Positions 15,576 through 64,000 of a stretch of DNA of 64,000 bases are shown here, in pieces. Position numbers and translations under genes: made by a program. This DNA is from Alligator mississippiensis (Eukaryota > Chordata > Crocodylia > Alligatoridae). Below the pieces are notes generated by a model. It did no database searches. It was not told where the DNA came from and saw only the letters and a program-made list of their open reading frames with translations. The DNA lies in contig NC_081824.1 of assembly GCF_030867095.1 (NCBI RefSeq), positions 123,450,162-123,514,161 on the forward strand. The letters run 5' to 3'. How positions within the stretch are numbered: position 1 is the stretch's first letter; each line of letters begins with the position of its first letter.

Positions 15576-16473
15576 TGTGCGGGCCAGGGGTGAGCCGGGC
15601 CCGTCTTTGCGCACGCGGACTGTGACCAGCAGCCCGGGCACGTGGGGCCGGAGAAAACCGCGGGGCGGTAAGGTACGCGCAAGCTAGAATTAGTTACGGA
15701 GGCATAGTGGTTGATTGAAAAGATTATTTACTTACACCCAAGATGGTCGCGGTGTAGGCTGGACAGTTTCCAGGTGCAGCTCCGCTTAAATCCTCGTTGG
15801 AGGACTCTGACAAACTCGGTTCTTTGGCCCCGGAGTGGTTTAGGCTCCGCGGGTTCGGCAATTCTTTCCTCACGGAGTGGCTGAATCTCCGTGGGTTTTG
15901 TTCGGTTCCCAGGTCCCCCGGAGCTGTTAAGACTCCGTGGGTTCGAAAATTGGGCATATAGGATAGGGATACATCTAGGATTGCGCTCAGCGACGCGGAG
16001 AGGCTAGAGGCTGTTTAAACCTCTGTTGCCTGCTTAAGAAAGGCGCGTTGGGTCCGCAAGGGTCCACATCGCTTGGAGATCTTCACACAGCGCGAAGTCT
16101 CCTCCTCCTGGCGAGTTCTGTATCTCTCCAGTTTTCCTCTCTCTCCAGCTTGGGTGGAAGCTACCCAAGCCTTTTGTATGACTAGCAAGCCAATAGCTAG
16201 CCGCCTCGTATGCCTACATTTAGAACCGGCCAATAATGTGGCGCAAATCTAAATACAAATGGTGGGAACTCCTTTGCACCGTGCATCTCTGAGATGCAAA
16301 AGAAATGCACCATGCAAAGAAGCTGCAAATTGGCGGGAAATCCCCCGTTGCACCAGAGTTCTCTCCCGCAGCAGAGAACTCTACCGTGCAAGGAAACTGT
16401 AATTTTAACGGGAACATAATTTAGCGTTGCCGAAGCACACACAAACAACAAATCACAACTTTGGGTTGTGACA
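15576..16473 (-). repeat. 3' LTR of the minus-strand element
   Basis: This 898-bp LTR begins TGTCACAACCC on the minus strand and ends CA at 15576. It carries a 10-bp hairpin at 16355-16382 (AGAGTTCTCT / AGAGAACTCT), a short palindrome GCATCTCTGAGATGC, ATTGG (inverted CCAAT) motifs upstream of a TATA-like CATACAAAAGG, three CGGAG-N9-CTCCG hairpins at 15831-15937, and a GTAAGT splice-donor-like site. No canonical AATAAA signal was found. Confidence 0.93.
15831..15937 (-). repeat. Three phased 19-nt hairpins in the LTR
   Basis: CGGAG-N9-CTCCG occurs at 15831-15849, 15873-15891 and 15919-15937. Each has a 5-bp stem and exactly nine loop bases, and starts are 42 and 46 bases apart. They sit downstream of the TATA-like motif and so would be in the transcript. 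They recur in the other LTR at 18930-19036. Confidence 0.8.
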
Positions 16474-16485
16474 TCCCCCCTTGCT
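16474..16485 (-). other. Polypurine tract
   Basis: On the minus strand AGCAAGGGGGGA lies immediately before the 3' LTR, the standard position for plus-strand priming. The identical tract occurs in the plus-strand copy at 44557-44568. Confidence 0.85.
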
Positions 16486-16615
16486 GAGAGCATAGCTAAA
16501 TTATGCTATAATCTTCACTCTAGAACCTTGTCATGAGTTGTCAAACGAGCAGACAAGCAAACAAACAAATAAACAAACATAAAATTCGCTGCCCTGGGAT
16601 TAAGTTACATAACAA

Positions 16616-16693
16616 TCAAGAAACAATAATCAACACAAACACATAATCTGATTCATAACAAAATTGCATGATCAGGGCTTCAGTGGGCGTCAT
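16616..16693 (-). pseudogene. Remnant of small membrane-protein frame
   Basis: From the ATG at 16691-16693 this frame begins MTPTEALI, as in the plus-strand copy. It then shifts because the T-run after CAA is two bases shorter, and stops after 25 codons. A polypyrimidine-AG splice-acceptor-like site (AG at 16781-16782) lies upstream, as in the other copy. It is broken relative to the 65-residue frame at 44344-44541, unless that copy is the altered one. Confidence 0.5.
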
Positions 16694-16780
16694 GGCAAAG
16701 TCGCGCATCAGGCCCTCACTTCTTTCGGTGATGTCATCCCTCTCAGGGCTCCTCCTCGCCACGTACTCTGAATATCGGAT

Positions 16781-16800
16781 CTGTAAACAGAAAGCTCTCA
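16781..16800 (-). promoter_or_regulatory. Candidate splice acceptor after gag
   Basis: On the minus strand GAGCTTTCTGTTTACAG precedes ATCCG, a good polypyrimidine-CAG acceptor. The plus-strand copy has an equivalent TTCTTTTCACAG followed by ATCCGG. Conservation of the site in two diverged copies supports use, but no transcript evidence is available. Confidence 0.55.
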
Positions 16801-17790
16801 AAAAATAGATTAATGAGCTTATTCAACAAACTTAAACAATTTCCATGGCTCAATTGGATGAAATCGTTGAGGATCCATCATCTGGCTCTTCTAAATAACG
16901 AAAACCTAACTCATAAGCCAATTGCCATTGGCCTGCGTCTCCTAAAATCCAAAGCTGCCACTTATTGAGTCCGGAACGCTGTAGGAGAAATCCAAACATG
17001 TATCGCTCCTGTAGGGTTCTCGGTGGCAGTGGTGGAAGATCGGATCCATGACGTCTGGTGCCTTGAGGTCCAGTCGGGTGTCGACAGTCCCGATCAAGAG
17101 ACAACCTTGGCTCCATCAGGATACACAGTCGTGGCAACTGACAAAGAAGATTACTCACGGGTTGGTTTACCATTGGACTGAGCAGAATCCGAAGGACGAC
17201 AATGTTCTTTTGCCCATAAATCTCGAGGCAACTATCTAAACTGTGAGAGGTTAGTGGAACGGTTCCAGGATCTCACAAGTGACGGTGAGGCCATGGTCTT
17301 ATTCGCTGGAGTGATGTCAGTCCCAGCGCACATGCTCTCGGGTTCCAAGCACAGTACGAGACGCTGATGAATGCCAGCATGAGATGCTCTGTGCCGGTAT
17401 ATTCTGGCCGTCCTGCATGCCACACGTGGGCTTTCTGACTAATCAGTCCTGCAACAAGCGCGGGTAGTGGAATAGGCAAGTGAGTATTAACTGTTATCAT
17501 GTCGATGTCGGTGACATGTCCTCTACTCCACGAAGCTTGTCTGACTAGGGAGCTTGCTTCTTCTTGATTCAGCAGGTCGGATCCAAGTTCCATGACTAAA
17601 AGTCCTAACCATACAGCTAGAGTCTCTTCAGGTTGAATTTTTGATGCTCTACATAAATCCTGCAACTCAGCTCTGGTGCGAGCATAATAGGTGGTAGCAA
17701 CTCGGTTAGTTGTTGTTGTAGAATAAGCTGCTCCTTCGGGAGATGATGCTGTTATAGGCTGAACTGCTGCCATGGGGGTTACTGCTGCTG

Positions 17791-18015
17791 TTACTGCTTA
17801 AGGCAGGAGGGGCGGATGCACTCCTCCGCTTGACTCTCTCCTTCGTCAGCAGGAAGGCGTGGTCGGCAGAGACGTCGCCGCGTCGCTAGGCGGGGTTGCC
17901 GGAGACGACGCTGCGTCGATGGGCGGAGTCGCTGACTGAACTCTCGCGGGTTCTTCAGAAGCTCCATCCTTCTTTTCCGGTTCTTCCACGCGGTCTCCCT
18001 CTTGCTCAGCGCCAT
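17791..18015 (-). CDS. Overlapping basic open frame inside gag
   Basis: A 74-codon frame in another register of gag starts at an ATG in strong context (CCAAGATGGC) and encodes an Arg/Lys-rich peptide beginning MALSKRETAWKNRKRR. The plus-strand copy keeps the same start and the same basic N-terminus (43021-43188). It may be only the by-product of an acidic, purine-rich gag segment read in another frame. Function is unknown. Confidence 0.25.
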   Translation of the reverse strand: MALSKRETAWKNRKRRMELLKNPREFSQRLRPSTQRRLRQPRLATRRRLCRPRLPADEGESQAEECIRPSCLKQ

Positions 18016-18655
18016 CTTGGACTGGCGTTTCAGGCTCCTTTTTCTCAGCCGCTTCTTTGACCGCTCGGATCGCCATCTGCAGCTGGGTTTTCAAACTTAA
18101 GTTCTTTTGCATTAGATTCATTATAGTATGAAAAGTTGCACTACATTCTCCCCCCTTGTTGTACCACGGGGCCACCCTCTCATTTGCGGCTCGTTCCTTC
18201 TCCATGTCTTCGCAGAGCTCGGATGGTAGCTCGCAACCCCTTAATCTAGCCACCATGAGAGGAGGGAACCGGCAGATCGACTCCGGCTCTTCACTCTCCC
18301 GAGCATATCGTAGGCATCGGGCACGCTCCCGGGTGAAAGTTGGGTTTGTTTCGCCTGCCGGATTGGGTCCGGCGAGGGACACAGTATCGAGGGGCCTGAA
18401 CAGGACCCGCTCGTCTCTCATTATACACCCGAACGCCACGGGGAGCAAATACACTTCCCTCTCTCGGGGCTCCGTCTTTGGAGACTCCCTCTTCTCCCTT
18501 CAGCGACAGGCATCTGCTGACAAATCTCTCACCCGTTCCGCCCGCCTGGTGGTAAGCGATATGCGCTTCCAGTTCCTCAAAGTTTTTCACTTGGCGTTGG
18601 TTATCGCGCCAAGGGCAGTTCTTAACCAATTCTAGCTCTAGCGCGTCTTCTCCTG

Positions 18656-18673
18656 ATCCCATCCTCGTCGCCA
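18656..18673 (-). other. Primer-binding site for tRNA-Ser(GCT)
   Basis: On the minus strand TGGCGACGAGGATGGGAT directly follows the LTR. It is an exact 18-nt complement to the 3' end (with CCA) of vertebrate tRNA-Ser(GCT) as I know that sequence. The match ends after 18 nt, the usual length for such sites. Confidence 0.85.
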
Positions 18674-19572
18674 TGTGCGGGCCGGGGGCGAGCCGGGCCC
18701 GTCTTTGCGCACACGGACTGTGGCCAGCAGCCCGGGCACGCGGGGTCGGAGAAAACCGCGGGGCGGTTAGGTACGCGCGAGCTAGAATTAGTTACGGAGG
18801 CGTAGTGGTTGATTGAAAAGATTATTTACTTACACCCAAGATGGTTGCGGTGTAGGCTGGACAGTTTTCCAGGTGCAGCTCTGCTTAAATCCTTGTTGGA
18901 GGACTCTGACAAACTCGGTTCTTTGGCCCCGGAGTGGTTTAGGCTCCGCGGGTTCGGCAATTCTTTCCTCACGGAGTGGCTGAATCTCCGTGGGTTTTGT
19001 TCGGTTCCCAGGTCCCCCGGAGCTGTTAAGACTCCGTGGTTTCGAAAATTGGGCATATAGGATAGGGATACGTCTAGGATTGCGCTCAGCGACGGGGAGA
19101 GGCTAGAGGCTGTTTAAACCTCTGTTGCCTGCTTAAGAAAAGCGCGTTGGGTCCGCAAGGGTCCACATCGCTTGGAGATCTTCACACAGCGCAAAGTCTC
19201 CTCCTCCTGGCGAGTTCTGTATCTCTCCAGTTTTCCTCTCTCTCCAGCTTGGGCGGAAGCTACCCAAGCCTTTTGTACGGCTAGCAAGCCAATAGCTAGC
19301 CGCCTCGTATGCCTACATTTAGAACCGGCCAATAATGTGGCGCGAATCTAAATACAAATGGCGGGAACTCCTTTGCACCGTGCATCTCTGAGATGCAAAA
19401 GAAATGCACCATGCAAAGAAGCTGAAAATTGGCGGGAAATCCCCCGTTGCACCAGAGTTCTCTCCCACAGCAGAGAACTCTACCGTGCAAGGAAACTGTA
19501 ATTTTAATGGGAACATAATTTAGCGTTGCTGAAGCACACACAAACAACAAATCACAACTTTGGGTTGTGACA
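18674..19572 (-). repeat. 5' LTR of the minus-strand element
   Basis: This 899-bp LTR is nearly identical to 15576-16473, with the same TG..CA ends, hairpins (18930-18948, 18972-18990, 19018-19036) and splice-donor-like GTAAGT (18828-18833 on the minus strand). It would supply the promoter for the gag transcript. Confidence 0.93.
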
Positions 19573-36257: not shown

Positions 36258-37097
36258 TTATTTCTTGTAACTCCCGGGGGGCGCCTTGGTGAATAAAACC
36301 TCACCAATTCCCTTCTGTGCCCCCGTGATGAACTTATAGGCAGCCACAAGGTCGCCTCTCAACCTTCTCTTGCGGAGGCTGAAAAGGTCCAGTTTCTCTA
36401 GTCTCTCCTCATAGGGCTTGGTCTGCAGGCCCTTAACCATACAAGTGGCCCTTCTCTGGACCCTCTCCAGGTTATCCGCATCCCTCTTGAATTGTGGTGC
36501 CCAGAATTGCACGCAGTACTCCAACTGCGGTCTGACCAGTGCCCAATAAAGGGGAAGTATCACCTTCTTGGACCTATTCGTCATGCATCTGCTGATGCAC
36601 GATAAAGTGCCATTGGCTTTTCTGATGGCTTCGTCACACTGCCGACTCATGTTCATCTTGGAGTCCACTAGGACTCCAAGATCCCTTTCCACTTCCGTGC
36701 CACCCAGCAGGTCATTCCCTAGGCTGTAGGTGTGCTGGACATTTTTCCTCCCTAGGTACAGCACTTTGCATTTCTCCTTGTTGAACTGCATTCTGTTGTT
36801 TTCTGCCCACTTGTCCAACCTGTCTAGGTCTGCTTGCAGCTGTTCCCTGCCCTCCAGCGTGTCCACTTCTTCCCATAGCTTTGTGTCATCTGCAAACTTG
36901 GACAGAGTACATTTCACTCCCTCGTCCAAGTCGCTGACGAAGACATTAAAGAGTATCGGTCCAAGGACCGAGCCCTGTGGGACCCCACTGCCCACACCCT
37001 TCCAGGTCGAAGCCAACCCATCCACCACGACTCTCTGGGTGCGACCCTCCAGCCAATTCGCCACCCACCGGACTGTGTAGTCATCCAAGTCACAGCC
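36258..37097 (-). pseudogene. CR1 reverse transcriptase, C-terminal part
   Basis: The frame includes VPQGSVLGPILFNVFVSDLD, the catalytic FADDTKLW motif (YADD-type A/C-block aspartates), the GVLVDSKMNMS segment and LVRPQLEYCVQFWAP, all standard for CR1. It would copy the LINE RNA at the target site. It ends early because of an indel near 36275, since the normal continuation RNNGHKVAESRFRLDIRR lies in another frame. Its upstream part is separated by the LTR insertion. Confidence 0.9.
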
Positions 37098-38015
37098 TGT
37101 GGCAGCGAAGTGCCCCCACAGGCTAGTGAGGGAGAGAAGGGAGGACCCACAGACCCCAGACCCCAAGAGAAAGCCCCCAGAGGGGCATACGTACCGGCTG
37201 AAGAGCAGCGGGAAGAGGAGCCACATCCGCGGCTGCAGCCGCGCGAACCGCCATTACGCCGGTTCTGGCAACAGCTGTTCCCGGCACGGCGAACAGCTGA
37301 GCCAATCCCAGCGGCCGTAGCAGCTGCGGCGGGAAGGTTTAAAAACGCCAGCAGGACAGGGAGAGAGGGGGAGCCAGGGAGAGAGAGTACGGGCAGGCAG
37401 CCCGTGCTGTGGGCTCTTGCACAGAGCGGAGAGGACCCAGCCTGCGGGTCTCAAGCAGGCAGCTTATCTAAGAGCTGTACACCTTTCGCGAACAGCAGAG
37501 TGAAAGGCGGTCAGAGAGTGCAAGCCGAGGCACTCTCTCAGTATCCTGAAGCGGCCGACGCTCAGGAGGCAGGGGAGCGCTCTGCTGCCGGTAGGAGAGG
37601 GGAGACAGCGGAGGCTCCAGGAGGGACCTGGAACCAGGGGGAGCACCCACCAGCTCCTCCTGATTTGGAGGAGTATTTTCTGTAAGAAGGGAGGAAGGAG
37701 GAATCACTCCCAGCAGGAGGGAGAACGACCGGGAACCGGGGACCCGGTCTGAGGCCGTCATACAGGGCCTGGAAACATCTGGAACGCATCACCCAGCAGT
37801 TGGCGTGTGGAAGGGGTGTAGGGGAGGCGGAGCCCCGTGGACCACCGCGTCACTCAACCGTGAGTAACACCGTCTATCAGGAGGCCCCACCCAGGATAAA
37901 GTTCTCCACTGTAGACCCCTCTAAAGGTAATTGATTACATCCAAGTCGTGGCAGGCGAGTTGAGGGGAGGGGCAACACCCCGATAGGCCAGGCGGAGCTA
38001 GACACAGGCTCCACA
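37098..38015 (+). mobile_element. Probable solo LTR of a different family
   Basis: This 918-bp insertion inside CR1 starts TGTGG and ends CCACA, with a 5-bp duplication CAGCC (37093-37097 and 38016-38020). In the plus orientation a CCAAT box (37302-37306) precedes a TTTAAAAA TATA-like box (37338-37345). It also has a 16-bp perfect palindrome CGCGGCTGCAGCCGCG (37228-37243). No internal genes are present, so an LTR-LTR recombination product is likely. The identity of flanks extends to 8 bp (CACAGCCT), which would also fit a hAT insertion, but no terminal inverted repeat supports that. It is unlike the LTRs at 15.6 and 41.7 kb. Confidence 0.75.
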
Positions 38016-39640
38016 CAGCCTCTAGACTTGTTCACCAGTATGGGGTGGGATACCGTATTGAAGACCTTCCTGAAGTCTAAGTATACGACATCCATCCCTC
38101 CTCCTGTGTCCAGGCGTTTCGTAACCTGGTCATAAAAAGAGACTAGACTGGTCAGGCACGATCTGCCTGCCACGAACCCATGCTGGTTTCCCCTCAGCAT
38201 AATTTGTCCTGCCGGGCTCTCGCATATGTGAGCCTTGATAATTTTTTCAAAGACTTTGCCAAGGATGGAGGTGAGACTGACTCGGCTATAGTTGCCCGTG
38301 TCCTCCTTCCTCCCCTTTTTGAAAATGGGGACCACATTGGCCCTTTTCCAGTCCTCCGGGACTTGGCCTGTGCGCCACGAGCATTCGAATATTCCCGCCA
38401 GTGGCTCTGCAATGATGTCGGCCAGTGCCTTTAGCACCCTCGGATGGAGCTCATCCAGGCCTGCCAACTTAAAGGCATCCAGTTCTTCCAAGTGACTCTG
38501 CACCATCTCAGGGTCTACGCATGGAAGTGTGGCGCCTTGCTGCTGCCTCTCTACAACCCCAGTGAGAGACTTGTTGTGTCCCTCGCTTAGGAACACTGAG
38601 GCAAAGAACTCGTTGAGGAGTTCAGCCTTGTCCCCTCTGTCTGTCACCAATTGTTTCTGCCCATTTAGCAGGGGTCCTATTCCTCCCTGGGCCTTCCTTT
38701 TACTCCCTATATATCTAAAAAACAATTTCTTGTTGTCCTTTACTTGGGATGCCATCCTCAGCTCCATGGTAGCTTTGGCCCGTCTAACTGCCTCCCTACA
38801 AGCACGAGCAGAGGAGGTATATTCATCTTTGGTGATCTCTCCTTGTTTCCACTTTTTGTGTGCTCCCCTTTTGGCCCTTAGGCTGCCCTGGATTTCTGCG
38901 GTCAGCCAGGGAAGCCTCCTGGCCCCTTTCCCTCTTTTACCCCGCATGGGGATTGTCTCGCTTTGTGCCCGAAGGATCGTTTCCTTAAGGCACAGCCACC
39001 CTTCTTGGGCTCCCATCATTTCAAAACTCCTACTCTGCAGTGCGTCCTTGACTAATCGCCTGAGTTCATTTAAATCAGCTTTCCTAAAGTCTAGTACTTT
39101 CACCCTACTAGTTACCTTACCCACTCGACGTCTTATGGTGAATTCTATTATTAGGTGATCGCTGTCCCCCACATGGCTACCAATCTGTAGGTCCCCTACC
39201 ATGTCATCCCCCATTGCCAATACCAGATCCAGTATGGCATTCCCCCTAGTGGGACCGTGTACCTCCTGTGTCAGGTGGAGGTCCTGTGCACAGGTTAGAA
39301 ACCTGTGTGAGCAGTGGGACTTTGCCGTCTGTGTCTCCCAGCAGATGTCTGGGTAGTTTAGGTCCCCCATGACTACTGCCTCTTTAACTTTTATGGTCTC
39401 TGAGAGCTGCCTCAGGAGCCCCGCATCTATTTCTTCCCCTTGATGTGGGGGTCTGTAGCAGACCCCTACCACCAAATCCCTTTCTCCTTGCCCCCCATGT
39501 AGCCTAACCCACAATCCTTCTACTTCTTCATCCTTGGATTCCGTCTTGATGAGGGTTGGCGTATATTGCTCATTGACATAGAGCGCAACCCCTCCCCCTT
39601 TTTTCCCTACCCTGTCCTTTCTGTACAAATACAGATACTT
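38016..39640 (-). pseudogene. CR1 endonuclease and reverse-transcriptase N-terminus
   Basis: An open frame of about 540 CR1 codons (the reading frame continues to 37877 inside the LTR). The order is: apurinic-type endonuclease with RVGKKGGGVALYV, MGDLNYPDICW and GDSDHLIIEF, then a linker with KRANVVPIFKKGRKED, and the reverse-transcriptase start with FVAGRSCLTSLVSFYDQV and VYLDFRKVFNTVSHPILVNK. The endonuclease would nick target DNA. The N-terminus is lost by 5' truncation. It is largely free of stops, so relatively young. Confidence 0.93.
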
Positions 39641-39660
39641 GTACAAATACTTGTCAATAA

Positions 39661-40493
39661 TCATCATGTGGTTACTTTGTCATTTTAGGGAGGGGTATTG
39701 AGAAGAACATGAGATGACTCTGTCAATACTCAGGCTCTAGATTTCCTTGAAACCTGCTAATCTGACTTTGACCCTGGGCATGGCATGGAAAGTGATCTGG
39801 TCTCATTGGCCAATAATCAACCCTCTTTTGACAGATTATAACTTCTTCAAATAACAGTAATAATCCAAAGTTTTGTTTTTGTTCCAATGTGTCTTCCCCT
39901 GGAACTTCTAATTTAATGTCTAATACTTTTACTCTAAAAATGCCAATATATCTATGTGTATTGCCAGAAAGTAACCAAGTGTCAATTTTCTGAATAATAT
40001 GCCCTTAAGAAGATAAAAAAATATTCTATTGTCATATAAAACAAATGGACTTGGGAAGAAAATATCATTCTTCTTCCTGAAGCAAATACCTTTAAGAGTC
40101 AATAATGAGAAATGGAGTCTGGAAGAGCTGTTGCATAGCAAGTAGAACTCAAGAGCTATGTAAAATAGTTCTGTTTTTTATGTTATATAATTATATGGTG
40201 ACTCATTCTCTGCATAGACTGAACAAGGTTTTCAAAGAATCTCTGTACCCAGTATGTTGAATTCCTTTGACAATCTGTCCCCAGCTATAAGTGCTTGAGC
40301 CGTTCCAAAAACTGCAGCCATAATGCATTGTTCTTGTTTCTGTTATACTGCTTTTGCAAGGGTCTCAATAGAGCTGTTTATGTATTATGACTGCTTATTG
40401 GATGCTTCTTCGGTTGATGTTCTTCTACATGCTCAGGAAGGTAGTACGTACACATGCAGGGGAGAACATACATGTTTAGAGATAGACTAAATA
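39661..40493. other. AT-rich sequence, no gene seen
   Basis: No exon or element was recognised. Confidence 0.4.
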
Positions 40494-41662: not shown

Positions 41663-42354
41663 TGTCATGACCCAAAGGGTATGATTTTGTGCGCGCTTCG
41701 GCACTGCAGAATTATTTCCCGCCACATGGAGCTTTCTTTGCACGGTGCAATTCTCAGTTGCATAGAGAAAACCCCGGTGCAAAGGAGTTCCCGCCACCCG
41801 TATGTAAATTTGTTTCCCACTATTGGCTGTTTCTAAATTATTCCCATGTGGCGGCTAGCGATTGGCTTGCTAGCCGTATAAGAGGCTTGAGCAGTTTCCG
41901 CCCAAGTTGGAGGAGGAGAACTTCATATCCATCTCGTGAAGAACTCTAAGCGCGCTGTGGAGCCTAACAAACTCCGCGTGTGCCTTAAAAGAGGATACAG
42001 GGGCCTGATCAACCTCTAGCCTCTCCCTGTCGCCGCCTGATCCCTCGACGTACCCTTCCCTGCACGCTTTCAGTCGGTCCACGGAGCCTAGCAAACTTGT
42101 GTGTGTGTATCCAGAGCTCTGTCCAGGTTGTTTTAAGAGGCTCGAGTTTTCTACGGGTCTTGTTCGAGTTTTGTTTTCATTTTGTAATTGCAACTCAAGA
42201 ATGTTTTTCTGCCTGCACCGCAACCACCTACGGTGTAAGTAAAATAATCTTTAATCAACCTCTATGCGTCAGTGCCTAATTCTAGTTCACCGTGCCGACC
42301 ACTTTCCCCGGCCCACGTGCCCGGGCTGCTGGCCACAGCCCCTCGGCCCCGACA
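41663..42354 (+). repeat. 5' LTR of the plus-strand element
   Basis: A 692-bp LTR runs from TGTCATGACCC to CGACA. Two ATTGG (inverted CCAAT) motifs (about 41822 and 41860) precede a TATAAGA box at 41877-41883. Two copies of an imperfect hairpin (GGAGCCTAACAAACTCCG near 41962 and a weaker one near 42080) parallel the triple hairpins of the other subfamily. A GTAAGT splice-donor-like site is at 42235-42240. No AATAAA signal is visible. Confidence 0.93.
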
Positions 42355-42372
42355 TGGCAACGAGGATGGGAT
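42355..42372 (+). other. Primer-binding site for tRNA-Ser(GCT)
   Basis: TGGCAACGAGGATGGGAT directly follows the 5' LTR. It matches the 3' end of tRNA-Ser(GCT) at 17 of 18 positions (A for G at position 5), and the minus-strand copy matches exactly. Confidence 0.85.
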
Positions 42373-43020
42373 ACGGGGAAAGCATGATAGAACTAGAATT
42401 AGTTGAGAACTGCCCTTGGCGAAGTGGGAAACGCGACGTAGCAAGCGTTGTGGAACTGGAGGCGCATATCGCTTACCACCAGGCAGGCGGAATGGGTGAA
42501 AGGTTTATCAGCGGACGCCTTTCACCGAAGGGAGAAGAGGGAGCTTCCGAAGACGGAGCCCCAAAAGAGAGGGAAGTGTATCTTCACCCCGCGGCATTCG
42601 GGTGTATAATGAATGATGAGCGGGTCCTGTTTAGGCCCCTCGACACTGTGTCCCTCACCAGAGTCAGCCCGGCAGGCGCAGTAAACCCAACCCTCACCCG
42701 GGAGCGTGCCCATTGCCTAAGATGTGCTCAGGAGAGTGAAGAACTGGTGCCGATCGACCGGTTCACCCCCTTTATGATGGCGTCTAGATTGAGGGGTTGC
42801 AAGCTTCCATCCGAGCTCTGCGAAGATCTGGAGACGGAGGAACGCACCGCAGATGAGAGGGTGGCCCCGAGATACGACAAGGGGGGAATGTTAACTGCAA
42901 CTTTCCGTACAGTAAGTGATTTAACGCAAAAAAATTTAAGTTTAAAAGCCCAGCTGCGTATGGCCGTTCAAGTGGTCAAAGAGGCGGCTGCGAAAGAAAA
43001 TCTTGAGACGCCATGCCAAG

Positions 43021-43188
43021 ATGGCTCCGAGCAAGAGGGAGACCGCGTGGAAGAACCGGAAGAGAAGGGTGAAGCTTCAGAGGAACTCACGAGAGTTCAA
43101 CCGACGCAGCGTTGCTTCCGGCGACCACGCCTTCTTGCCGACGGAAGGGAGAATCGAGCGGAGGAGTGCATCCGCCCCTCCTGCCTGA
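43021..43188 (+). CDS. Overlapping basic open frame inside gag
   Basis: A 55-codon frame begins MAPSKRETAWKNRKRR at an ATG in strong context (CCAAGATGGC), overlapping the acidic linker of gag. The minus-strand copy has the equivalent start and a longer 74-codon frame. An RNA-binding or nuclear accessory peptide is possible, but the basic content may just mirror the acidic gag codons. Function is unknown. Confidence 0.25.
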   Translation: MAPSKRETAWKNRKRRVKLQRNSREFNRRSVASGDHAFLPTEGRIERRSASAPPA

Positions 43189-44239
43189 AGCAATAACAGC
43201 AGCGATGACTCCCACAGCAGCAGTTCAACCTGTAGCAACAACCAGCCGAGTTGCTACTACCTATTACGCTCGCACCAGAACTGAACTGCAGGATTTGTGC
43301 AGAGAATCAAGAATCCAACCTGAAGAAACTCTAGCTGTATGGTTGGGACGTTTGGTCGTGGAACTTGGGTCCGACCTGCTGAACCAGGAAGAAGCAAGCT
43401 TCTTGGTCAGACAAGCTTCGTGGAGTAGAGGACACATCACTGACATTGACATGGCGGCGTTCAACGTTCACTGGCCTATTCCACTGCCAACGCTTGTTGC
43501 AGGACTGATCGGTCAAAAAGCCCACGCATGGCATGACGGACGGCCAGAACATACTGGCACAGAGCAACTCATGCTAGCGATTATCAGAGTCTCGTACTGT
43601 GCCTGGAACCCCAGAGCATGTGCACTAGGACTGACATCACTCTAGCGAATAAGACCATGGCCTCACCGTCATCTACGAAATCCTGGAACCGTTCCAGTGA
43701 CCATTCACAGCATAGATAGTTGTCTTGAGGTTTATGGGCGAAAGAACATCGCTGTCCTCCCGATTCTGCTTAACCCAAAGGTTAACCAACCTGTGAGTAA
43801 TCTTCTTCATCAATTGTCACAACTGCGTATCCTGATGGAGCCAAGAATATCCAGTGATCGGGAACGTCGACACCTGACCGAGGCTCAAGGCGCAAGACAT
43901 CACGAATCCGATCTTCCATCATTGCCACAGAGAACACCAGAGGAGCGATACATGTTTGGATTTCTCCTACAGCGTTCTGGACTCAATAAGTGGCAACTTC
44001 GGATTCTAGGGGATGTAGGCCAACGGCAACTGGCCTATGAGTTAGGTTTTCATTATCTGGAAGAGCTAGACGATGGCTCCTCGACGATTTCATCCAGTTG
44101 ATCATGCAAGAGAGAGTTGGCTCCACTCTAGCCATGTTTAAACACCTGTATTATATGTTTTGGGGAAGTGGTAGTGCGTTTAACTAACCGCCCTATTGTG
44201 TGCGGGTTTTTGTAAATATTAGTGAAATAACTGTTTTAA

Positions 44240-44256
44240 GAGAATTCTTTTCACAG
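44240..44256 (+). promoter_or_regulatory. Candidate splice acceptor after gag
   Basis: TTCTTTTCACAG (AG at 44255-44256) precedes ATCCGG. The same arrangement occurs in the minus-strand copy. Together with the GTAAGT in the LTR (42235-42240) it would produce a spliced RNA lacking the gag ATG. Confidence 0.55.
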
Positions 44257-44343
44257 ATCCGGAACTCAGAGTGCGTGGCGGAGAGAAGCCCCAAGAAGGA
44301 TAACATCATCGGCAGAAGCGAGGGCTTGACGCGCGACTTCGCC

Positions 44344-44541
44344 ATGACACCCACTGAAGCCCTGATCGTGCAATTTTTTGTTATGAATCTGGTTATGTGT
44401 GTATGTATTTGTGCTGGCTATTATTTAATTCGATCCCTGGAGGACGAACTTCTTATGTTAGCTGATTTTGTGTTTACCCGTTTAGTTCAACGACCCGTTA
44501 TAAGAGCTACTGGCAACCCGAGTGACAAGCATGTGGTATAA
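44344..44541 (+). CDS. Small single-pass membrane-protein frame
   Basis: From an ATG in good context (GCCATGA) a 65-residue protein is encoded, the first ATG after the candidate splice acceptor. Residues about 9-29 form a strongly hydrophobic segment with three Cys (MCVCIC). A charged stretch (RSLEDELL) and a basic tail follow. It ends just before the polypurine tract, the position of env or an accessory gene in retroviruses. No envelope motif is present, so it may be an envelope remnant, a leader-like peptide or a new accessory protein. The minus-strand copy shares the first residues but is frame-broken. Upstream, the frame is open back to about 44200. Confidence 0.4.
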   Translation: MTPTEALIVQFFVMNLVMCVCICAGYYLIRSLEDELLMLADFVFTRLVQRPVIRATGNPSDKHVV

Positions 44542-44556
44542 TTCAGCTGTGCCTTC

Positions 44557-44568
44557 AGCAAGGGGGGA
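44557..44568 (+). other. Polypurine tract
   Basis: AGCAAGGGGGGA lies immediately upstream of the 3' LTR and is identical to the tract of the minus-strand copy. Confidence 0.88.
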
Positions 44569-45257
44569 TGTCATGACCCAAAGGGTATGATTTTGTGTGT
44601 GCTTCGGCACTGCAGAATTATTTCCCGCCACATGGAGCTTTCTTTGCACGGTGCAATTCTCAGCTGCATAGAGAAAACCCCGGTGCAAAGGAGTTCCCGC
44701 CACCCGTATGTAAATTTGTTTCCCACTATTGGCTGTTTCTAAATTATTTCCACGTGGCAGCTAGCGATTGGCTTGCTAGCCATATAAGAGGCTTGAGCAG
44801 TTTCCGCCCAAGTTGGAGGAGAACTTCACATTCATCTCGTGAAGAACTCTAAGCGCGCTGTGGAGCCTAACAAACTCTGCGTGTGCCTTAAAAGAGGATA
44901 CAGGGGCCTGATCAACCTCTAGCCTCTCCCTGTCGCCGCCTGATCCCTCGACGTACCCTTCCCTGCGCGCTTTCAGTCGGTCCACGGAGCCTAGCAAACT
45001 TGTGTGTGTGTATCCAGAGCTCTGTCCAGGTTGTTTTAAGAGGCTCGAGTTTTCTACGGGTCTTGTTCGAGTTTTGTTTTCATTTTGTAACTGCAACTCA
45101 AGAAAGTTTTCCTGCCTGCACCGCAACCACCTACGGTGTAAGTAAAATAATCTTTAATCAACCTCTACGCGTCAGTGCCTAATTCTAGTTCGCCGTGCCG
45201 ACCACTTTCCCTGGCCCACGTGCCCGGGCTGCTGGCCACAGCCCCTCGGCCCCGACA
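44569..45257 (+). repeat. 3' LTR of the plus-strand element
   Basis: A 689-bp LTR nearly identical to 41663-42354, with a 3-base deletion in the GGAGGAGAAC region and scattered substitutions. Confidence 0.95.
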
Positions 45258-46425: not shown

Positions 46426-46574
46426 AATAGTTAGTAACTCTCTTACCTCCCTACACAAGCTTAAGGCCAAAACAAAAAGCTTAACATCCTATTCACCTTG
46501 AAACAAAAATGTTTCATATCAGCCACTTGCAAGAAAATAAAAAAAATGGAAACAGCAAGAAAGCTAAGGCATAT

Positions 46575-46657
46575 ACCAGGATGGCCGAGTGGTTAAGGCG
46601 TTGGACTTAAGATCCAATGGGTGCATACCTGCGTGGGTTCGAACCCCACTCCTGGTA
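46575..46657 (+). tRNA. tRNA-Leu (anticodon TAA)
   Basis: The 83-nt sequence folds into a complete class II tRNA. The acceptor stem is ACCAGGA/TCCTGGT, the anticodon stem TTGGA/TCCAA with loop CTTAAGA (anticodon TAA at 46608-46610), followed by a long variable arm and T arm GTGGG-TTCGAAC-CCCAC, with discriminator A. The A box TGGCCGAGTGG (46582-46592) and B box GGTTCGAACCC (46636-46646) are intact. It matches vertebrate tRNA-Leu(TAA) closely except in the variable arm. There is no intron. A Pol III terminator follows. It is likely functional, though the CR1 tail downstream leaves a SINE-like origin possible. Confidence 0.96.
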
Positions 46658-46664
46658 GCTACTG

Positions 46665-48232: not shown

Positions 48233-48802
48233 AGCATTTATTTATTATATATACGGTCCCACTAGGGGGAATACCTTACTGGACTTGGCGCTGGCTATGG
48301 GGGAGGACCTGGTAGGAGAGCTGCAGATTCTTGGTCACTTTGGGGACAGTGACCACCAATCAGTCAAATTCACCATACAATGTGGGTGAGTAAGATAACT
48401 AGTAGTGCTTGACTTTAGGAAGGCTAACTTCAGTATGCTCAGAGATGGGAGTCCAGGAAGGTTGGTCGTTCCTAAAGGAAGCAATCCTTCGGGTGCAGAG
48501 AGAGACAATCCCAGTTGAGGGAAAAGTGGGAAAGGAGCCAAAAAACTTCCTTGGCTAAACAGGGAAATCCGGGGGAGCCTAAGGGCAAAAAAGAAGGCAT
48601 ACATGTGGTGGAAGCAGGGTGAAGCTACCAAGGAGGAGTATACCTACTTGGCCCACACTTACAGGGAGGCAGTTAGAAAGGCCAAAGCAACTACAGAGCT
48701 GAGGTTGGCAACACAAATCAAAGACAACAAAAAGTCTTTTTTTAGGTATGTAGGGAGTAAAAGGAAGGCGCAGGGCAGCATAGGACCCCTAGTGAACAAG
48801 AA

Positions 48803-49420
48803 GTGACAGAGAGGGGGGACAAAGCTGAGCTATTCAATGAGTTTTGTGCCTCCGTGTTCCTGAACAGGGCTCAAGATAAGTCTCCTGATGGGTTCTTAGA
48901 TGGACATCAGAGGGACACCAGCCCACTAACTGTCGACACTGACTTGGTGCAGAGTCACTTGGATGGACTGGATGTGTTCAAGTCAGCAGGCCCGGATGAG
49001 CTGCATCCAAGGGTACTGAAGGAATTGGCCAGTGTCATAGCAGAAACACTGGTACAGCTGTTTGAGTGCTCATGGCGCTTGGGTCAGGTCCGGGAGGACT
49101 GGAAAAGGGCCAATGTGGTCCCTATTTTCAAGAAGGGAAGGAAGGAGGATCTGAGTAATTATAGGCCAGTCAGTCTCACCTCCATCCTACCAAAGGTCTT
49201 TGAAAAGATTATGAAGGATCATATTTGTGGGAGTCCAGCAGGAAAAATAATGCAGCAGGGAAACCAGCACAGATTTGCAGCAGGTAGATCATGCCTGACC
49301 AGTCTGGTTTCACTTTATGACACAAAATGCTTAGATGCAGGAGTAGAGCTGGATGTCATTTTCTTGGACTTTAGCAAGGCCTTCAATGTGGTATCTCATC
49401 CTATTCTCATAAATGAATGA
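48803..49420 (+). pseudogene. CR1 reverse transcriptase, N-terminal part
   Basis: A 205-codon frame contains KRANVVPIFKKGRKEDLSNY, AAGRSCLTSLVSLYD and IFLDFSKAFNVVSHPILIN, the first catalytic block of a LINE reverse transcriptase. It ends in a stop after ILINE. The FADDT block continues in another frame at about 49620-49640. Confidence 0.88.
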
Positions 49421-49981
49421 AGAGGCTGTGACATAGTTCTTTACACGGTCTGGTGGGTGGCAAATTGGCTTAGCGGTCACACCCAGAGAGTGGTAGTAGA
49501 CGGGCTGGTATCGATCTGGAAGGATGTGGGTAGTGGGGTCCCATAGGGTTTGATCCTTGGACCTGTACTCTTCAATATCTTCATCAGTGACTTGGATGTG
49601 GGTGTGAAGTGTACTCTGTCCAAGTTTGCGGATGATACTAAATTGTGGGGTGAAGCGCACACTCCGGAGGGTAGGGAATGATTGTAGGCAGACCAACAGG
49701 TTGGAAAAGTGGGCAGTTCACAATAGGATGCAGCACAACAAGGACAAGTGCAGAGTGCTGCACCTATGGCTCAAAACAGCACATCTACTGGCTGGGAAGT
49801 GACCCTCTCAGCAGCACAGAAGTGGAAAGGGATTTCAGAGTCATAGTGGACTCCAAGATGAACATGAGTTGTCAGTGTGACAAAATCATCAGCAAAGCTA
49901 ACTGTGCTTTATCATGCATCAGTAGCATCATGGATGCAAGAAAAATAGATCCAAGGAGGTGATATTCCCCTCTATGCAGCA

Positions 49982-50392
49982 TTGGTCAGACCGCAGTTGG
50001 AGTACTGCATGCAGTTTTGGGCACCGTACTTCAAGAATGATGTGGATAGACTTGAGAGGGTCCAGAGGAGGGCCACTCATGTGGTTAGGGGCTTACAGGA
50101 CAAGCCCTATGAGGAGAGACTGAGGGACCTGGACCTCTTCAGCCTCCGCAAGAGAAGGCTGAGAGGTGATCTTGTAGCCACCTACAAATTCATTTGGGGG
50201 ACGCAGCAAGGGATCAGAGATGCTCTGTTCACCAGGGCACCTCTTGGGGTAACAAGGAACAATGGTCACAAATGGACAGAGAGCAGATTTAGGCTAGATA
50301 TCAGGAAAAAACTTCTTCACGGTAAGGGTGGCCAAAATTTGGAATGGGCTTCCAAGGTAGGTGGTGCTCTCCTCTACCTTGGGGATCTTTAA
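49982..50392 (+). pseudogene. CR1 reverse transcriptase, C-terminal part
   Basis: The frame contains VRPQLEYCMQFWAPYFK, LERVQRRATHVVRG and FSLRKRRLRGDLVATYKF, typical of the CR1 C-terminus. It belongs to the element starting near 48245 and is separated by frameshifts from the catalytic block. Confidence 0.88.
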
Positions 50393-55142: not shown

Positions 55143-55915
55143 TTTCATAGTCTCATAGTTGGTAGGGTTGGAAGGGACCGGAGCAGATCATCAAGTCCAA
55201 CCCCCTGCCATGGCAGGAAAGAGTACTGGGGTCCAACTACCCCTGCAAGGTGTTTATCCAGCCTCCTCTTAAAGACCCCCAAGGTAGAAGCCAGCACCAC
55301 TTCTCTTGGAACTTGGTTCCAGATCCTAGCTGCCCTGACAGTGAAGTAGCGCCTCCTGATATCTAGTCTCAATCTACCCTCTGCCAGCTTGTGACTGTTA
55401 TTTCTTGTCACTCTTGGGAGTGCTTGGGGGAACAGGGACTCCCCCAATGCCTGCTGGTCCCCCCTGACTAGTTTGTAAATGACCACTAGATCCCTCCTCA
55501 GCCTTCTCTTGTGGAGGCTTAACAGGTTCAGGTCCCTTAGCCTCTCCTCGTAGGGCCTGCCCTGCTGCCCCCTGATCATGCAGGTGGCCCTCCTCTGGAC
55601 CCTCTCCATATTGTCCACATCCCTCCTGAAGTGCGGTGCCCAGAACTGGATGCAGTACTCCAACTGCAGCCTGACCAGTGTCGCATAGAGAGGGAGGATC
55701 ACCTCCTTGGACCTGCTCGTGATGCATCTGTGGATGCATGACAAGGTACGGTTGGCCTTCCTGACCGTGTCCCCACACTGTCGGCCCATTCTCATTTTGG
55801 CATCAATAATGACTCCAAGATCCTTTTCTGCCTCTGCACTGATGAGAAGGGAGTTCCCCAGCCTGTAGGTATGCTGCTGGTTCTTCCCCCTCAGGTGCAG
55901 TACCTTGCAGATCCA
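55143..55915 (-). mobile_element. CR1 LINE, 5'-truncated
   Basis: The 3' end TTTCATAGTCTCATAG is at 55143-55158. The minus strand then carries an almost uninterrupted C-terminal reverse-transcriptase frame (to about 55910) with GVIIDAKMRMG, LVRLQLEYCIQFWAP, MERVQRRATCMIRG and RVTRNNSHKLAEGRLRLDIR. Truncation at about 55915 removed the catalytic region. A young CR1 by its open frame. Confidence 0.92.
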
Positions 55916-55945
55916 GAGTCCAATGAAATTAAATGGTGTTCTTTC

Positions 55946-58431
55946 CACTTCATTCAGTAGGCTTTGAAGCAGGCCTTTGACCCATCTGGAAATAAAAATC
56001 CTTTTCTATTTCATAAGGCTTTTGTTCCAAGTTATTTAAATATGATCATGAGGATGGGGCCAGGGAATGTAAAACTATACAAAAATTGAAGCCCCCCCTG
56101 AAAAAGGGATGTAATTGTTATAAATCAAAAATTTACCAGAAAAAATAATCAAAATCTTTAAAAAATTCCAACATAGGAAGTATAAAACTGTTTTCTACTC
56201 ATGTTAGTTTTGTCATGGCAGCAACTACTGAGATTTGCCAGATAATAGACTCTTAGAAGGGCCCCCAAAGGCTTTCAAATTTATCATCATCATTTTTACA
56301 ATCTATCAACTACTCCCTCCTCTGAGGCTACTTCCAGCAAAGCCATCATAATCCATCCTCCTCTCTTGCTTCTGTTCACACCATTCTATTTTCTTAACAC
56401 TCAAAATGATGCAACCTATCACGTACATGCATGAGGTAATCCTCATAGCAAACCTATGAGGTAAATATTCCATTTCTAAAAGGAACATAATCACAACTGA
56501 GCTAGAGGGACTTACCCAAGTCTATTCAGTGAGAAAATAGCAAGACTGAAATCTGAGGTCAGGAATTCATGGCTGACTATTGTTTTTCTCAATGAACTCA
56601 GTCATTAGCCTCCCTTTCTTTCCATTCATCAGGGATGGGTTGGTTTTTTGTTTTTTGAGGGTTTTTTGTCCTCTGTAGGCCTCCTGTGCAACCCAGAGGA
56701 GACACACTGTTCAGGAAACAGGCACTAGTCATGTTCTGCTTGATCTGCAGAGAGATGAACACTATGAGGTGTCTCAAAATATATGTTTATACCAATTACC
56801 AAGCATTTAGGAAGTAATTCGCTAAGTTAATTTATTCACGTGTGTTTCTAGTGAGATCACCCAAGATTGTGTGTCTACAAATACAGTACAGCTGGTTTCC
56901 ACTTAAGTTTGGGCTAGACCTGACTTTCCCTTCTCTTTTCTAAGGCACCATCATAATTTTGAAGCAGTGACATTTGCACATCTTTCCAATCAGGGCACCC
57001 AACAAGGAAAAAGAATATGGTGCTACTTTCTGGGATGATATCAGTGTCAATGAATGAATCATCAGACCATCATTACATATGCACTGTTTGCAGAAACATT
57101 TGGGTGTAAACACAGCAGGCAAGTCAGTGAGCATATTCACAATGGAATGCTCTATCATGAACTTAAAATATATTGGATTTGTCTGGGTAGAAGCGCAGGT
57201 TGTTAAGAGGCTGGGAGACTATAAATTAGGCTTCCCTAAACATGTTTTAGAGCTGACCCTCTTTCCCTAACCTCTCCAAACGTGGATAAAGATGTGACCC
57301 AAATACTGTACAGAGGAAATGAGAAGATCACTGTGGACAACCACCCTATGAAAGCATCACTATACAAGATAAAATGTCAACAAAATGGTGGTAGGGTGCC
57401 TTGCCACTGTGGTTAACATAGAGACAAGTAGACCATGCAGCAGCAGCATCGTGCATCCCAGAGGAAAAAAATGCATGGTAGCAGCAATGACAGCAGCAAA
57501 AAAAATGCATGGTAGCAGCCATGACAGCAGCAAATAGGACAACAGATGGACACTGTGTACACACCTGGACGGGCAGAACAGCATTTTCCAGCTGGTGGCA
57601 GTAACAGCCCTATTGCTGGTGCACTTGTCTGGGAAGTGGTACAAGGCAGAGATGTGGCTTGCTGCTAGGAAGCTACTTTTACTGAGGAAGCAGGAGATGG
57701 CCTTTGTAAGCATCTCCAACAGAAGGGCTGGTGGATACTATCAAAGGTCTTGGAAGGTGAGGCACTTAAGGAAGAGCCAGAGACATCAGTTTGGCAATCT
57801 AATAGTAAGTAAGTATTGATTTGTGTGAAGTCAGAAAGGCCAGGCAAAATGACACTCAGCCTGTTCCAGATCCTTTGGCTGGTAATTTGCTTATTAATCC
57901 TTTATTATTTATTTATTACTAATCAGCAGGATTTTTCCTGTCACCCTGTGCTGCTGAAGGGAATGCTTCCACTATTCCTCCTCATGGATCATCAGGAACT
58001 GACTATTCTTCCTGGACTAGTTATGTCTTGTCACACCTAAGCCAGGTTCTACAGATGTATTTGGAAGTAAAGAATACTCCACATTTACTTGTATTTTTGT
58101 AGTACTGTCATGTCATGTTGGTTGTTTATAGAAAATGATTTTTTCCAAAGTAGCTCTTAAAAGCCCTAATTATGTTTGGTAGAGGCACAGTGTGGAAAAA
58201 CATGCTTAGGGCAGCCATCTTTCATCCTTCCTGTGGCCTATCTCCTCACTTGCAAGCACAAGAATGACAGCAAACAGAGAGCTGGGCAGTGTCATGGAGT
58301 ACAAGACTTTCTGAGAATCATTCTCTAGACTAGCAGTGGAGTTTAATGCCACTGGGGAATAACTTTCTCCTACTTGTTTCTCACTGAAACCTACATCCAG
58401 ATGGCAAAAAACTGCTGAATTCACAAAGAAG
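55946..58431. other. AT-rich sequence, no gene seen
   Basis: No exon was recognised. Two short direct repeats of AAAAAATGCATGGTAGCAGC type lie near 57467-57520. Confidence 0.4.
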
Positions 58432-63788: not shown

Positions 63789-63793
63789 ATACA

Positions 63794-64000
63794 TGTCACA
63801 ATCCAAAGTTGTGAGTTTTTGTTTGTGCGTGCTTCGGCATCACTAAATTATGTTCCTGCTAAATTGCAGCTTCCTTGCACGGTGGAGTTCTCTGCTGCAG
63901 AAGAGAACTCTGGTGCAACAGGGAATTTCCCGCCAATTTGTAGCTTTCTTTGCATGGTGCATTTCTTTTACATCTCAGAGATGCACGGTGCAAAGGAGTT
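63794..64000 (+). repeat. LTR of a third copy, cut by the window end
   Basis: It starts TGTCACAATCC and follows the long-LTR subfamily of 15576-16473 throughout, including the 10-bp-type hairpin (63885-63910) and the GCATCTC/GAGATGC-like palindrome. No polypurine tract precedes it, so it is a 5' LTR or a solo LTR in plus orientation. Confidence 0.9.

Follow-up and report, generated by a model that had tools for sequence, protein, structure and literature searches.

Can translation of gag begin on the very site at which a tRNA primes reverse transcription? The question is raised by a 64,000-nt stretch of the Alligator mississippiensis genome (2.35 Gb), C1:123450162–123514161, hereafter the window, which contains two complete LTR elements, A (41663–45257, plus strand) and B (15576–19572, minus strand). 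Both show the defining features of LTR retroelements, that is, direct TG...CA LTRs, a target duplication, a primer site and a purine tract (Table 1). The LTRs have TGT...ACA ends, with within-element identity of 97.1% and 97.0%, respectively, by self-alignment, and 5-bp target duplications are also present in all nine other copies whose LTR start could be aligned from base 1. Judging from sequence comparison, we consider it likely that A and B are gag-only elements in which translation of gag begins on the primer site, at the ATG spanning the LTR junction (Met1), at a second in-frame ATG (Met5), or at both.

Table 1. Features of elements A and B; positions are those of the window.
Feature	Position	Strand	Details	Basis
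A, 5' LTR	41663..42354	+	692 bp, ends ...CCGACA	self-alignment, ends and flanks
A, junction ATG (Met1)	42354..42356	+	G at –3, G at +4	sequence read
A, primer site	42355..42372	+	tRNA-Ser(GCT), 17/18	site scan, tRNA pairing
A, Met5 (second in-frame ATG)	42366..42368	+	ATG at +12, entirely within primer site; A at –3, G at +4	
A, N-terminal open frame of gag	42354..43196	+	starts at junction, 280 aa	
A, capsid-like part of gag	43073..44101	+	different frame; pieces 43073–43645 and 43646–44101	dN/dS vs B
A, polypurine tract	44560..44568	+	AAGGGGGGA, adjoins 3' LTR	
A, 3' LTR	44569..45257	+	689 bp; 5-bp target duplication TATGT at both flanks	
B, 5' LTR	18674..19572	-	899 bp, ends ...CGCACA	self-alignment
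B, junction ATG (Met1)	18672..18674	-	C at –3, G at +4	
B, primer site	18656..18673	-	tRNA-Ser(GCT), 18/18	
B, gag in pieces	17273..18674	-	junction frame, then 17846–18499 and 17273–17797	
B, polypurine tract	16474..16482	-	AAGGGGGGA, adjoins 3' LTR	
B, 3' LTR	15576..16473	-	898 bp; 5-bp target duplication ATAAG at both flanks	

As an earlier sequence-only reading of this locus had stated, in both elements the A that closes the LTR and the TG that opens the primer site make an ATG, and the primer site then reads Ala-Thr-Arg-Met-Gly, the one base difference between A and B (GCA/GCG) leaving Ala unchanged; the frame from the junction runs M-A-T-R-M-G-... in both. The primer named there, tRNA-Ser(GCT), fits both sites, which pair with the 3' end of a vertebrate tRNA-Ser(GCT) (Table 1); ARAGORN classed the tRNA sequence used as Ser(gct). 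With up to three mismatches allowed, these two are the only primer-site matches in the window, the chance expectation being 0.03. The junction ATG is automatic, arising wherever a terminal CA of the LTR directly adjoins a primer site that begins with TGG, and its presence or conservation alone is therefore no evidence of translation. Similarly, the peptide encoded by the primer site is conserved regardless of translation, because the site must pair with the tRNA. As both are forced, the real tests are the frame past the primer site, whether other starts are lacking, and whether gag has been under selection.

Scanning of the whole genome with a 20-nt junction pattern, at most one mismatch allowed, yielded 1,739 places (836 + 903), and none with the reversed control; the exact primer site occurs at 968 places. 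A-type copies were sampled with a 297-nt query from A lying across the junction (40 scored of 2,315 candidates, 30 taken as loci), and B-type copies with a 305-nt query from B (40 scored of 4,057 candidates, 30 loci, of which L075 was unalignable at the junction, leaving 29). The junction ATG is present in 30/30 A-type and 27/29 B-type copies (the exceptions being one ACG and one GTG), and Met5 in 29/30 and 29/29, respectively. Over 80 codons, frame 0 contains no stop in 25 of the 30 A-type copies, and over 70 codons the same is true of 27 of the 29 B-type copies; neither frame 1 nor frame 2 is open in any copy of either type. Since both queries contain the junction and hence are biased to copies that keep it, a query starting 36 nt past the junction was added (40 scored of 1,588 candidates, all 40 junctions read). 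The sequence-only reading had called for such an alignment of family copies and had held that most copies lacking the ATG, or having a stop soon after it, would speak against it; in this sample, found without junction letters, the ATG is kept in 38 of 40 copies (one ATT, one GTG), the first 22 codons are open in 39 of 40, and Met5 is retained in 37, according to the list of primer-site changes. In the copies read, the check thus came out in favour of that reading. Each of these samples covers the family members most similar to A or B rather than every copy, and the counts reflect common ancestry rather than independent cases.

Among the first 100 exact primer sites listed, all in C1, ACA immediately precedes the site in 92, and the other eight include one GTG (L070) and two sites in the repeat copy L099. 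Eight further copies, picked by position among exact sites with ACA, so that the ATG is there by choice, span three gag types and include L103, L104 and L107; frame 0 is open in all eight over 24–27 codons, frame 1 is closed in all eight and frame 2 in five. The same 100 sites include three close same-strand pairs, with spacing of 42, 42 and 69 nt, and all three doublets are in frame, with the gag frame kept: MATRMGSSEILAAH-MATRMGSNEILAAH-MATRKG in L098, VATRMGSSEILAAH-LATRMG...ELELVENCP in L099, and MATRMG...AAHMATRMG in L100. The repeat units, of 42 and 69 nt, consist of an LTR-end-like stretch and the primer site and lie at the start of gag; L098 and L099 are not independent, because they have the unit in common.

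The third test is selection on gag, for which we compared A and B, the dN/dS ratios being point values without error bars. In the two pieces of the capsid-like part dN/dS is 0.22 and 0.27, against 0.52–1.22 in the other frames. In the N-terminal part it is 0.51 in the gag frame (codons 7–243, no stop in either element at ungapped codons), against 0.61 in frame 1 and 1.02 in frame 2, with numerous stops; the third part of this region gives 0.46 for the gag frame and frame 1 alike. Fixed A/B differences are distributed over the three codon positions as 5:4:6 in codons 13–35, which gives no sign of codon-position constraint there, and as 1:1:3 in codons 36–67. From these comparisons gag looks like a selected gene, with a capsid-like part that looks selected and an N-terminal part that looks weakly constrained.

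This weak N-terminal constraint, together with an ATG that comes free at CA|TGG, leaves room for the explanation that the junction ATG is an accident and the open frame incidental, gag starting elsewhere, at a non-AUG codon in the LTR, through a spliced leader, or at a downstream Met. Moreover, as the primer site itself is stop-free in every frame, only about six codons before the conserved core test the frame. One deposited protein (P0015) is modelled from the Met at the gag core (MELELV), and a GTAAGT-like motif in the LTR at about –121/–161 makes it conceivable that a splice donor lies ahead of the primer site. We nevertheless regard such an accident as unlikely, given that the frame is kept in nearly all copies, in three gag types and across the in-frame duplications of the primer site, and that in B-type copies the first Met beyond Met5 lies about 80 codons further on, so that a start there would lose the conserved ELELV.NCPW region.

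A start upstream of the primer site has a precedent in the yeast element Ty1, whose primer site lies within the GAG ORF (PMC4974528), with the 5' UTR at 1–53 and the primer site at 95–104 (PMC5454406). Ty1 translates its primer site as a part of Gag, and its RNA serves both as mRNA and as template; the same would hold for the alligator family, in whose copies the frame through the site is open and common. The two differ in that the Ty1 AUG lies in the LTR, some 40 nt before the primer site, whereas the proposed alligator start either spans the junction or falls within the site, and in that Ty1 is primed by the initiator tRNA-Met and the alligator family by tRNA-Ser(GCT). By analogy, the normal product could be an N-terminally extended gag begun in the LTR. 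An open in-frame upstream ATG is indeed present in element A and six further A-type copies (7/30), and protein P0004 is modelled from a Met in the LTR, with M[AV]TR[MI]G following 22 LTR-coded residues. These ATGs are however scattered (–39, –84, –87, –90), and the 3' LTR of A has neither of the two extra ATGs, the –90 one reading ACG there, so that they arose after insertion. Within the 240 nt of LTR that precede the junction, no B-type copy (0/29) has an open in-frame ATG, some having out-of-frame ones, and no upstream AUG is common to all copies (30 A-type, 29 B-type). We thus hold an LTR-begun product to be very improbable.

As the frame is open, no other start is common to the copies, and gag looks selected in its downstream part, initiation is most likely at Met1 and/or Met5. 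The sequence-only reading had named the junction ATG alone; its ATG and frame stand, but Met5, inside the primer site, is an equally good candidate. The context of Met1 has G (28/30) or A (2/30) at –3 in A-type copies, and C in all 29 B-type copies; every one of the 30 A-type copies has G at +4. For Met5, the two elements agree, with A at –3 and G at +4. Leaky scanning at Met1 could yield both products. In RNA folding, the mean unpaired probability of AUG1 is 0.63 in A and 0.53 in B, the stretch as a whole having 0.39, a difference too weak for us to build on.

At least 18 distinct gag-like proteins have been deposited, all gene predictions, 16 of those listed from A. mississippiensis and two from A. 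sinensis, and no homologs outside these two species are found among the matches listed. Twelve of these 18 cover the N-terminus, and M[AV]TR[MI]G is present in nine of these, in eight as the protein start. Two proteins have other beginnings, MASRTG (P0014) and MASQTG (P0018) instead of MATRMG, which may reflect a decayed primer site or a different primer tRNA; P0018 is annotated in A. sinensis as an isoform of the host gene bis(5'-adenosyl)-triphosphatase. Gag has no match among Pfam families and PDB chains, no relative of its N-terminus was found among viral contigs, and an AlphaFold model of P0014 (16 alignment rows) has pLDDT of 34.5, too low for use.

When retroviruses replicate, the tRNA serves as template for one strand of the primer site. 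This part of the earlier claim, that the N-terminus of gag is rewritten from the host tRNA, agrees with general retroviral biology, but rewriting "in each cycle" was an overstatement, because the second strand descends from the RNA; for this family the rewriting would follow from that biology. The per-site difference between A-type and B-type copies is 6.7% in the ATG and primer site, compared to 36.8% in the following 18 nt. Such low divergence fits resetting by the primer with decay after insertion, and the needs of priming alone predict the same picture. In the 40 copies obtained with the query that starts past the junction, CpG transitions constitute 20 of the 29 primer-site changes. The changes G5A and C4T occur in the ratio of 11 to 2 in the A-type junction-based sample and 7 to 5 in those 40 copies, and as the excess of G5A shrinks in the latter, we read it as query bias and CpG decay. 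An inherited variant at primer-site base 5 was considered and rejected: the 11 A-type copies with G5A require 10 changes on the tree, the mean for shuffled data being 9.2, that is, they do not cluster.

The internal parts of A and B (42355–44568 and 16474–18673) are about 2.2 kb long, and the pieces scanned gave no match to reverse transcriptase, protease or integrase. Both elements thus consist of LTRs and a gag ORF without pol, as in the TR-GAG type. Ten of 20 fetched A-type copies (L031–L050) align along the full 2,214-nt internal part of A, and nine are shorter, with common breakpoints, four lacking about 897–1440 and five lacking about 897–1821; one is cut short. The pol-less form is therefore the A-type norm, and shorter derivatives have spread too. 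Downstream of gag, A has a frame of 117 aa that includes a hydrophobic stretch (window 44188–44541, plus strand); compared with B, it gives no clear sign of being coding (dN/dS 0.70).

A third lineage (L103, L104, L107) has the same junction and a clearly different start of gag, ...EKNLI.CCP.... About 3.2–4.0 kb downstream of one of its primer sites there is a frame open throughout 801 nt (L109, 1–801; 266 codons), unlike anything in A or B and without matches in Pfam and PDB. The order of its motifs (SDGT, E, AIDSQ, HTKSH...D) suggests an RT–RNase H region. If this assignment is right and the frame is pol of the same element, an autonomous partner would use the same start.

With their TGT...ACA ends and 5-bp target duplications, A and B have the traits of class III ERVs, which Ty3-like elements can show too. 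These traits are given for class III in PMC8278194. The Xenopus class III element XtERV-S is similar to the alligator elements in both respects and in having a serine tRNA primer, and different in that this primer is tRNA-Ser(AGA/TGA), a 158-bp leader separates LTR and gag, and pol and env are present. Plant TR-GAG elements share with A and B the LTRs, primer site, purine tract and single gag gene, with pol absent, and one of them reportedly transposes in Arabidopsis; the portion of that account available to us (PMC8704663) does not mention a gag start on the primer site. Chong et al. (2014) described 45 groups of crocodilian ERVs and a class ERV4 in the same hosts as the present family (PMC4299795); the words "primer" and "tRNA" are absent from the main text of that paper. 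The sequence-only reading had called the start position unusual among retroviruses. For vertebrates this holds as far as the literature searched goes, where no element with a gag start on the primer site was met; more generally it needs qualification, as a primer site translated within gag is known from Ty1. What looks unusual, relative to these sources, is the start codon at or inside the site, in a vertebrate family.

In the reading that we prefer, a start at Met1 and/or Met5, transcription would proceed from a TATA-like box (a motif only) about 220 nt ahead of the junction, and ribosomes would scan an R-U5 leader of about 200 nt and initiate at Met1/Met5, producing a short M-A-T-R-M-G tail before the gag core. 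Gag-aided annealing of tRNA-Ser(GCT) would hide the start codon, and as the annealed tRNA covers it, we propose that one RNA is not primed and translated simultaneously. Reverse transcription would reset the primer site from the tRNA on one of the two strands, integration would leave CA|TGG intact, and pol would be provided in trans.

Should translation of gag begin on the primer site, the host tRNA would be both primer and template for a part of the coding sequence, the tRNA–RNA duplex would have to hide the start codon, and priming as a switch from mRNA to genome would become a testable question. If indeed no RNA separates the primer site from gag, packaging signals have to be in R-U5 or within gag. 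The 1,739 junction places provide many natural variants for testing the idea. More tentatively, one might suppose a vertebrate family, with gag-only and pol-bearing lineages, that takes its start codons from the primer: the host tRNA gene would write the N-terminus each cycle, a change of primer would recode it at once (MASRTG and MASQTG being candidates), priming would exclude translation, and in-frame repeats would build arrays of N-terminal peptides.

Whether gag is translated from any copy now is a separate matter. The junction frame of A stops at 43196 and that of B within about 130 codons, so both window copies are broken, and of 19 fetched copies having both LTRs, 18 show a difference of 2.7–11.1% between the two, the other (L032) being rearranged. 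Hence the arrangement may be a relic that functioned while the elements moved, with the frame translated from no present copy, to which we give an even chance. Several gag-like proteins deposited without interruption, albeit as predictions, point the other way, and a relic is compatible with translation from the primer site as proposed here, which concerns the period of activity.

Other sequences of the window include the beginning of another B-like LTR (63793–64000), 91% identical to the start of the B 5' LTR and running off the window end, and pieces of non-LTR retrotransposons at 36258–39679 (minus strand), 48761–50306 (plus) and 55145–56005 (minus). The first of these matches Pfam endonuclease and reverse transcriptase families, and the other two resemble it at the DNA level. 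ARAGORN calls a tRNA-Leu (TAA) at 46574–46659 (plus strand). Elsewhere in C1 of the same assembly (G000), three primer sites on the minus strand at 56057695, 56060785 and 56063875 are spaced by 3,090 nt, like a tandem array of LTR elements.
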